DNA from: Gammaproteobacteria bacterium TMED112
GTDB lineage: Bacteria > Pseudomonadota > Gammaproteobacteria > Magnimaribacterales > TMED112
NCBI GenBank assembly: GCA_002170245.2
Contig: NHFN02000002.1
Location: 1-47,633 of the forward strand
Reading direction: 5' to 3'
Length of the DNA: 47,633 bases
Part shown: in pieces, positions 5,433 through 7,060 of the stretch
How the letters are laid out: every line of letters starts with the position of its first letter
Numbering within the stretch: position 1 is the first letter of the stretch
Translations under genes and position numbers: made by a program
The notes under the pieces: generated by a model
The model's input: the letters and a program-made list of their open reading frames with translations, nothing else
The model's database searches: none
Told to the model about the DNA's origin: nothing

Positions 5433-5837
5433 ATGGATTTCTTCGATTTTTTAATTAGTAGGTGGTATCTATCTCTACCACTGCTTTTGACATTAATTTT
5501 TTGGTATTTCCATGAGACAAGTAAAGGCGGGAAAAGGATTACTCCTTCACAAGCTGTGAATCTTATTAATGATAAAGACGCAATTTTCATAGATATTCGC
5601 GAAAAAGATAATTTTGATTCTGGACACATCCATGGATCTATTAATGTTCAGAAAGATTCATTCGAAAAACAGGAACATTTACTCAATAAAGGTAAACCTG
5701 TGGTAGTCATTACAGAAAATGGTTTAGATGCAGGAAGTGCTGGAGTTGAATTATTGAAGCTGGGTATCGAAGAAGTTTATTTACTCAAAGACGGTCTTAT
5801 TTCTTGGCAAGAAGAAAGCCTCCCATTAGTTAAATGA
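5433..5837 (+). CDS. membrane-anchored rhodanese-fold protein lacking the catalytic cysteine (YibN-like)
   Basis: One hydrophobic segment (residues 10-26) is followed by a single rhodanese domain (35-134) with the typical strands IFIDIREKDNFDSGHI and the tail LKDGLISWQ. Layout and length resemble E. coli YibN. The active-site loop reads ITENGLDAGS at 93-102, and by alignment the sulfur-carrying cysteine is replaced by Thr94; the whole protein contains no cysteine. It is therefore unlikely to be a sulfurtransferase and may be a binding or scaffold domain. It sits beside a phosphoglycerate mutase gene, as yibN does in enteric bacteria, although there the mutase is of a different type. Confidence 0.85.
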   Translation: MDFFDFLISRWYLSLPLLLTLIFWYFHETSKGGKRITPSQAVNLINDKDAIFIDIREKDNFDSGHIHGSINVQKDSFEKQEHLLNKGKPVVVITENGLDAGSAGVELLKLGIEEVYLLKDGLISWQEESLPLVK

Positions 5838-5843
5838 GAGGCT
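5817..5843. terminator. hairpin between the convergent rhodanese-like and glnII genes
   Basis: AGCCTC (5817-5822) pairs with GAGGCT (5838-5843), and inside it CATT pairs with AATG across one mismatch with a five-base loop. On the minus strand the stem is followed by TTTCTTCTT, which suits termination of glnII. On the plus strand the following bases are not T-rich. The stem spans the rhodanese-like stop codon. Confidence 0.5.
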
Positions 5844-6831: not shown

Positions 6832-6888
6832 TTTGGCTCCTAAAGTTTTTAATAATTATTTTATGCATCATTATCTGCAGGATTTAGA

Positions 6889-6922
6889 AGCTAAACTCGA
6901 CCGGGTTTAACGCTCGCGTTCC
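6889..6922 (-). promoter_or_regulatory. putative expression platform of the glnII riboswitch
   Basis: Directly after the aptamer, the 3' strand of its closing stem (GGAACG) can instead form AACG-CGAG-CGTT (6909-6922 on the minus strand). This is followed by a larger hairpin in which TAAAC pairs with GTTTA and AGC with GCT (6889-6914). These structures are mutually exclusive with, or compete for, the closing stem of the aptamer, which is what a ligand-controlled switch needs. There is no T-run after them, so translation or RNA stability is a more likely control point than intrinsic termination. The pairing is visible; the function is inference. Confidence 0.45.
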
Positions 6923-6965
6923 TTCGGCTTTCACCTACTTCCGTCTTTTTTCAAAGATGAACGAT
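6914..6965 (-). promoter_or_regulatory. glutamine riboswitch aptamer (glnA RNA motif)
   Basis: On the minus strand the sequence carries the conserved features of the glnA RNA class. The closing stem P1 is CGTTC (6959-6963) with GGAACG (6917-6922). Next comes hairpin TCTTT-GAAA-AAAGA with a GNRA loop, then the invariant-looking internal-loop block GACGGAAGTAGG, a short GG-TGAAAG-CC stem and the CGAAGGAACGC 3' strand. glnA RNAs bind L-glutamine and commonly sit in front of nitrogen-metabolism genes, chiefly in cyanobacteria and marine metagenomes. Here the motif is about 85 bases upstream of the glutamine synthetase start and on the same strand, so feedback by glutamine is the natural reading. 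Confidence 0.88.
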
Positions 6966-7010
6966 TTTAACTACTTCCCTAAAAGGGCCCCTTTTAAACC
7001 ATGGAGTATG

Positions 7011-7027
7011 GTGCAAAAGTAATGCAC
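7011..7027. repeat. perfect inverted repeat at the predicted glnII transcription start
   Basis: GTGCA and TGCAC flank seven bases (GTGCAAAAGTAATGCAC). The repeat lies about 5-20 bases downstream of the predicted -10 box, so it could be an operator or the first hairpin of the leader. The half-sites face the opposite way from the NtrC consensus. Confidence 0.4.
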
Positions 7028-7031
7028 TTCT

Positions 7032-7060
7032 AATTTAGTATTTTTAATTAAAATTGGCAA
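7032..7060 (-). promoter_or_regulatory. putative sigma70 promoter of glnII
   Basis: On the minus strand TTGCCA (7055-7060) and TAAATT (7032-7037) are 17 bases apart. They lie in the only sizeable gap between yqiA and glnII, upstream of the riboswitch, so the transcript would begin near 7025 with a leader of about 195 bases. Confidence 0.5.

Follow-up and report, generated by a model that had tools for sequence, protein, structure and literature searches.

The leader of glnII, the type II glutamine synthetase (GSII) gene in the window (the whole 47,633-nucleotide stretch of Gammaproteobacteria bacterium TMED112 DNA analysed here), is probably a glutamine riboswitch of class I, extended on its 5' side by an accessory pseudoknot, and as such would be the main product-feedback control of the organism's only glutamine synthetase (GS). 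In this lineage, loss of NtrBC, RpoN and PII goes together with the presence of glutamine riboswitches before GS and ammonium-uptake genes, in one and the same place on the chromosome, and the question of a riboswitch taking over from a two-component system is now directly testable. A covarying accessory domain is also added to a well-studied riboswitch class; since this domain is not part of the Rfam model, what it does to affinity or folding is open to measurement. The features of the locus are collected in Table 1.

Table 1. Features of the glnII locus in the window, from the 3' end of the gene to its promoter
Feature	Position	Strand	Basis
Intrinsic terminator-like stem 3' of glnII	5817..5843	-	place of ntrB-ntrC in relatives (synteny)
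Type II glutamine synthetase gene glnII, 326 aa	5851..6831	-	NCBIfam GlnII NF041605, E 1.4e-115
UUUAGGAGC with Shine-Dalgarno AGGAG of glnII	6836..6844	-	sequence, pairing test
Predicted anti-Shine-Dalgarno strand GCUUCUAAA	6883..6891	-	complementary to 6836-6844
Platform hairpin H1, GUUAAAC/GUUUAGC, directly 3' of P1	6890..6911	-	19 leaders
Glutamine riboswitch aptamer RF01739, P1-P2-P3	6913..6965	-	cmscan and P2/P3 covariation in relatives
Tentative second pseudoknot CCC-UUUUA-GGG...UAAAA	6965..6987	-	pattern scan only
H-type pseudoknot PK1	6988..7012	-	pattern matches in relatives, S2 covariation
Sigma-70-like promoter TTGCCA-17-TAAATT	7032..7060	-	consensus scan only

The aptamer, its target and its distribution

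A cmscan search of the minus-strand leader recovered RF01739 at 67.2 bits, against a gathering score of 35 (E 7.4e-13 for the window), with the match spanning the full model (1-53), no broken pairs and a distance of 82 nt to the glnII start. The original prediction of a glnA RNA core in front of a GSII gene is borne out by this score, as it is by the recovery of every part that it had listed, namely P1 CGUUC/GGAACG, P2 UCUUU-GAAA-AAAGA, GACGGAAGUAGG and CGAAGGAACGC. It had also proposed looking for the core in the GSII leaders of related genomes, and in relatives the core is conserved and covarying, with two-sided changes at four pairs of P2 and three of P3, while P1 is invariant. With a score above the gathering threshold, a P1-P2-P3 core that covaries in P2 and P3, and a location within the 5' UTR of a nitrogen gene, the element is securely identified as the glutamine riboswitch RF01739; judging from its sequence, the window copy is expected to bind L-glutamine. 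A motif resembling the promoter of Table 1 is visible in the leaders of relatives as well.

The downstream ORF, which has full GSII length, finds its best match in the NCBIfam GlnII model, and its product appears GSII-like, as had been proposed for the riboswitch target, at 386 bits where the curated cut-off of NF041605 is 500 bits. It is the single PF00120 match in the window genome, and hence the only GS found there. The GlnE domain was found in none of the 21 genomes searched, in agreement with the earlier claim that this GS lacks adenylylation control. In a GSII protein tree, genus g10 groups with other genera of f3 and not with the window genus, g1, with moderate support; the leaders of g1 and g10 nevertheless look homologous, and the riboswitch leader may thus have moved between genera independently of the GSII gene. 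In genome G020, synteny reveals a type I GS in the glnII slot with the leader kept. This locus (L361, 5664-7070) and its counterpart L013 of genome G007 both combine a type I GS in the GSII slot with a retained pseudoknot and tandem aptamers.

The window genome (1.02 Mb, 20 contigs) is a member of the SAR86 cluster, an abundant, streamlined lineage of marine Gammaproteobacteria, which confirms the gammaproteobacterial setting read from the gene content; a further genome of the window genus, G006, measures 1,003,251 bp. Matches to RF01739 occur in 93 of 199 SAR86-order genomes; a single genome has as many as seven, and tandem matches are frequent. The second aptamer of the window genome (C12:61969) precedes an operon of a Gcw_chp porin and an ammonium transporter, which is divergent from a gene interpreted as glutamate synthase. 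The aptamers of g1 and g10 precede genes for GSII, GS I, porin/amt and a TonB receptor, those of g8 precede gltB, not GS, and those of the remaining SAR86 genera stand mostly before tiny ORFs and an ATP-grasp-like gene.

Several of these other arrangements have features of their own. At L033, L070, L072, L076 and L090, single or tandem aptamers with a short platform, CAUCUUUU..AAGGAGAUG, stand before tiny ORFs; one of these has a weak match to DUF4278 (23.0 bits, cut-off 25.3), the domain that makes up IF17, a GS inhibitor of cyanobacteria, while a different one weakly matches DUF4177. Three consecutive aptamers precede a porin-like gene in g10 (L050, L053, L085), and a possible hairpin, AAAAAAUGC..GCAUUUUUU, with a U run lies 3' of them as a possible terminator. 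The ATP-grasp-like gene, with a single aptamer before it (L024, L025, L026, L031, L055, L069), resembles, by eye only, a neighbour of Anbu-type proteasome systems.

A conserved pseudoknot 5' of the aptamer

Directly 5' of the aptamer is a pseudoknot that the original prediction had overlooked. PK1 (7012-6988, ACCAU-A-CUCC-AUGGU-UUAAAA-GGGG) is made up of S1 ACCAU/AUGGU, L1 A, S2 CUCC/GGGG and L3 UUAAAA, and one to three copies of the element occur per leader in relatives. For a test of S2, copies were picked only by CCAT-N4/5-ATGG and position: among 31 distinct copies, 116 of the 124 possible S2 pairs form, against a mean of 97.7 and a maximum of 110 in 5000 trials of random re-pairing. In the pseudoknot alignment, 97% of cells are paired and 20 are two-sided; covariation stands at 0.327 versus 0.098 for shuffled alignments, with 0 of 500 shuffles reaching it, and sliding the S2 partner brings pairing to at most 44%. 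S2 appears as CUCC/GGAG, CUCC/GGGG, UUCC/GGAA, CCCC/GGGG and UAAC/GUUA, and porin leaders have three pseudoknots in a row with CUCC/GGAG, UAAC/GUUA and CUCC/GGAG. PK1 thus has the two crossing stems and the compensatory changes of an H-type pseudoknot, and is a conserved RNA structure backed by strong covariation. A search of the Rfam families gave no relevant match to it, even at permissive E-values.

The tentative second pseudoknot of Table 1 is missing or weak in the homologues L014, L023 and L044; free pseudoknot scans in such AT-rich leaders are very noisy. Two other readings of the PK1 sequence were rejected: GGAG as a decoy Shine-Dalgarno is not general, as S2 has GUUA, GGAA or GACU elsewhere, and the frame of a mini-ORF starting from the AUG inside S1 is not conserved.

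The pseudoknot pattern yields 52 matches in 27 of the 199 SAR86-order genomes, solely in g1 and g10, and by their coordinates each is followed within 90 nt by a glutamine aptamer; with the pattern reversed, the same 199 genomes give no match. As all 52 adjoin aptamers, we discarded the idea that the pseudoknot serves other genes alone in SAR86. Among the matches listed from public genome contigs, those from SAR86 adjoin aptamers except for one at a locus edge, and none of about 100 from outside SAR86 does so; the latter are chance matches.

The motif extends to viruses. Of 120 viral contigs picked solely for having the aptamer, 2 contain it, and further scanning brought up about 25 viral contigs in which CCAUAA-GUC-AUGG-N2-AAAA-GAC-UAC directly precedes the aptamer; these contigs have DUF4278-like small genes and, in several cases, T4-like phage genes (by eye). 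Most viral glutamine aptamers are without the pseudoknot, and BLAST against annotated phages gave no match. With eight viral copies added, partly found by a search in which the second stem was fixed, covariation is 0.450 versus 0.123 shuffled. In L365, L366, L370, L375 and L380 the pseudoknot is followed by an aptamer whose P3 region holds a long insertion (RF01739 49.3 bits in L365), with DUF4278-like genes downstream in the two that were checked. L225, an IMG/VR contig of 6323 bp, has a SAR86 g10 pseudoknot-aptamer-GSII leader with the GSII frame cut short; its neighbours are possibly phage-like, and either an assembly chimera or an acquired host gene is possible.

As to its role, we infer that the rigid pseudoknot or pseudoknots at the 5' end most likely insulate the aptamer and stabilise it during folding, which fits its short loops and its closeness to the aptamer. 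Recognition of a ligand or protein may still have room in the unchanging CCAU/AUGG and A-rich loop. The pseudoknot could then sense a second input, either a metabolite or an RNA-binding protein, and with the glutamine aptamer turn the leader into a two-input gate. Such a sensor would account for an S1 and A-rich loop that are invariant while S2 is free to vary, in SAR86 and viral contigs alike, but part of the S1 invariance reflects the way in which copies were picked; the occurrence of as many as three copies in tandem and modular loss of the pseudoknot (e.g., L082 versus L030) also favour it, whereas an L1 of 0-2 nt and an L2 of 0 offer no obvious pocket, and the pseudoknot never stands alone before another gene in SAR86. 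We consider a second sensor unlikely. Less likely again is the broader proposal that the array represents an undescribed sensor class that works only with the aptamer, in an all-RNA two-input nitrogen control that replaced NtrBC-PII and is also borne by marine phages.

The downstream platform and predicted shut-off of translation

GS-type leaders have in common, 3' of P1, the sequence CGUUAAAC...GUUUARCUUC. Within this platform, CGUU just before H1 is complementary to AACG of P1, GUUAAAC pairs with GUUUARC to give H1, and CUUC with the next bases is complementary to the Shine-Dalgarno region, the window strands GCUUCUAAA and UUUAGGAGC forming nine pairs. In 19 leaders, 96.9% of H1 cells are paired, with no two-sided changes; the pairing that masks the Shine-Dalgarno has modest covariation across 12 distinct leaders, a level reached by 311 of 20000 permutations. 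When the aptamer is forced in constrained folding, H1 rises in most leaders; Shine-Dalgarno exposure is unchanged in the same equilibrium calculation. In its plain minimum-energy fold the leader does not exceed shuffled sequences in stability (z -0.04), plain folding being uninformative here because the program cannot form pseudoknots.

These complementarities suggest the following switch. Plentiful glutamine would bind the aptamer and close P1; closed P1 would free CGUUAAAC to form the H1 hairpin with GUUUARC; and with H1 formed, the CUUCUAAA strand would cover the Shine-Dalgarno and GS synthesis would fall. When glutamine is scarce, AACG from the 3' strand of P1 would pair with the adjacent CGUU, weakening H1 and opening the ribosome site. 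Lowering of GS by glutamine through its leader would be the natural reading of this arrangement, OFF polarity its best reading, and glutamine-induced shut-off of GS translation its most likely function.

The proximal pseudoknot strand could itself be part of the switch through a helix, P0, in which AGUUAAA 5' of the aptamer pairs with downstream UUUARCU. This complementarity is seen in GSII, GS I, TonB and porin leaders, where it is always kept by A-U or G-U changes; it was, however, judged by eye, the GUUAAA repeats make chance matches easy, and there are no compensatory two-sided changes. P0 is doubtful. An opposite polarity, with glutamine raising GS expression as for the cyanobacterial gifB leader, would draw on the shared aptamer class, for which ON polarity has been reviewed (PMC6316151), and on the gifB-like small ORFs of other SAR86 genera, albeit behind a different short platform. 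It would imply positive feedback on GS, and the GS platform is unlike the CAUCUUUU..AAGGAGAUG platform of the small-ORF genes and has a masking strand complementary to the Shine-Dalgarno; we thus regard an ON switch as quite improbable.

Loss of NtrBC, RpoN and PII, and relation to known systems

At a threshold of E<1e-30, NtrC-type activators are absent from all genomes of g1 (21/21), g10 (10/10) and g8 (9/9), and present in 138 of the 159 others, i.e., the SAR86-order genomes of genera outside these three; the 21 of these 159 that are also without an NtrC match are so partly through incompleteness. PII (PF00543) is absent from 21/21 genomes of g1 and 9/10 of g10 and present in 151/159 others, and is kept by g8. 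RpoN is absent from g1, g10, g8 and some other genera, e.g., g7. Genus g7 keeps NtrC without RpoN, and g4 and g14 have only short ORFs (~80 aa) covering the C-terminal part of the RpoN DNA-binding domain. In NtrC-bearing relatives the gene order is yqiA-glnII-ntrB-ntrC-rhodanese-gpm; in the window, G006, G012 (g1) and G034 (g10) it is yqiA-[pseudoknot-riboswitch]-glnII-rhodanese-gpm, with no ntrB-ntrC. Thus, NtrBC and RpoN are gone from g1 and g10, as is PII in nearly every genome, and both genera carry the riboswitch leader instead, an in-place swap of the leader for ntrB-ntrC. A counterpoint is g8, which lost NtrC and yet has the switch on gltB rather than GS. It is very improbable that the palindrome ACCAT-N5-ATGGT, which lies just after the promoter and adjoins a TTTTGCAC also found in leaders of NtrC-bearing relatives, is no RNA element and merely a DNA operator for a transcription factor, such as a relic NtrC site, given that S2 (CUCC/GGAG, UUCC/GGAA, UAAC/GUUA, AGUC/GACU) covaries across it, which a DNA site does not need, and that NtrC is absent from the pseudoknot-bearing genomes.

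Neither the RNA class nor its use in tandem nor its marine link to GS, PII, gltB and amt genes is new: glnA RNA was associated with these genes in marine sequences (PMC2864571), and tandem glutamine aptamers number 157 doublets and 4 triplets (PMC9481103). A review described glutamine riboswitches as restricted to cyanobacteria, where those reviewed are ON switches, with GS/amt associations from environmental samples only (PMC6316151). The present findings point to SAR86 as a lineage behind at least part of these associations once known only from environmental sequences. The literature searched (PMC3127080 and PMC6212724 being outside its coverage) ties the riboswitch neither to SAR86 nor to NtrBC/PII loss, and mentions no upstream pseudoknot.

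The SAR86 leader is like glutamine riboswitch class I (glnA RNA, RF01739) in aptamer sequence and structure, 5' UTR position, nitrogen targets and frequent tandems; it differs in the added H-type pseudoknot or pseudoknots 5' of the aptamer, in its gammaproteobacterial host and in targeting GS itself within a lineage that has a name. The cyanobacterial gifB riboswitch (PMC6316151) has the same aptamer class and acts on GS control, but turns on a GS inhibitor, whereas the SAR86 switch sits on the GS gene, has another platform and is predicted to be OFF. The Glutamine-II riboswitch (Downstream-peptide, RF01704; PMC6698751) likewise combines a glutamine ligand with a pseudoknot, which there is the aptamer itself, in contrast to the separate upstream pseudoknot of SAR86. 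RF01704 has no match in the window leader, and its only score, 18.6 bits in L020 against a cut-off of 33, overlaps the aptamer and not the pseudoknot. Finally, the NtrBC/PII system of proteobacteria also controls glnA and amt by glutamine status, but as a protein cascade that is missing in the window genus, whose switch would do the job of the NtrB-NtrC and PII proteins of its sister genera.
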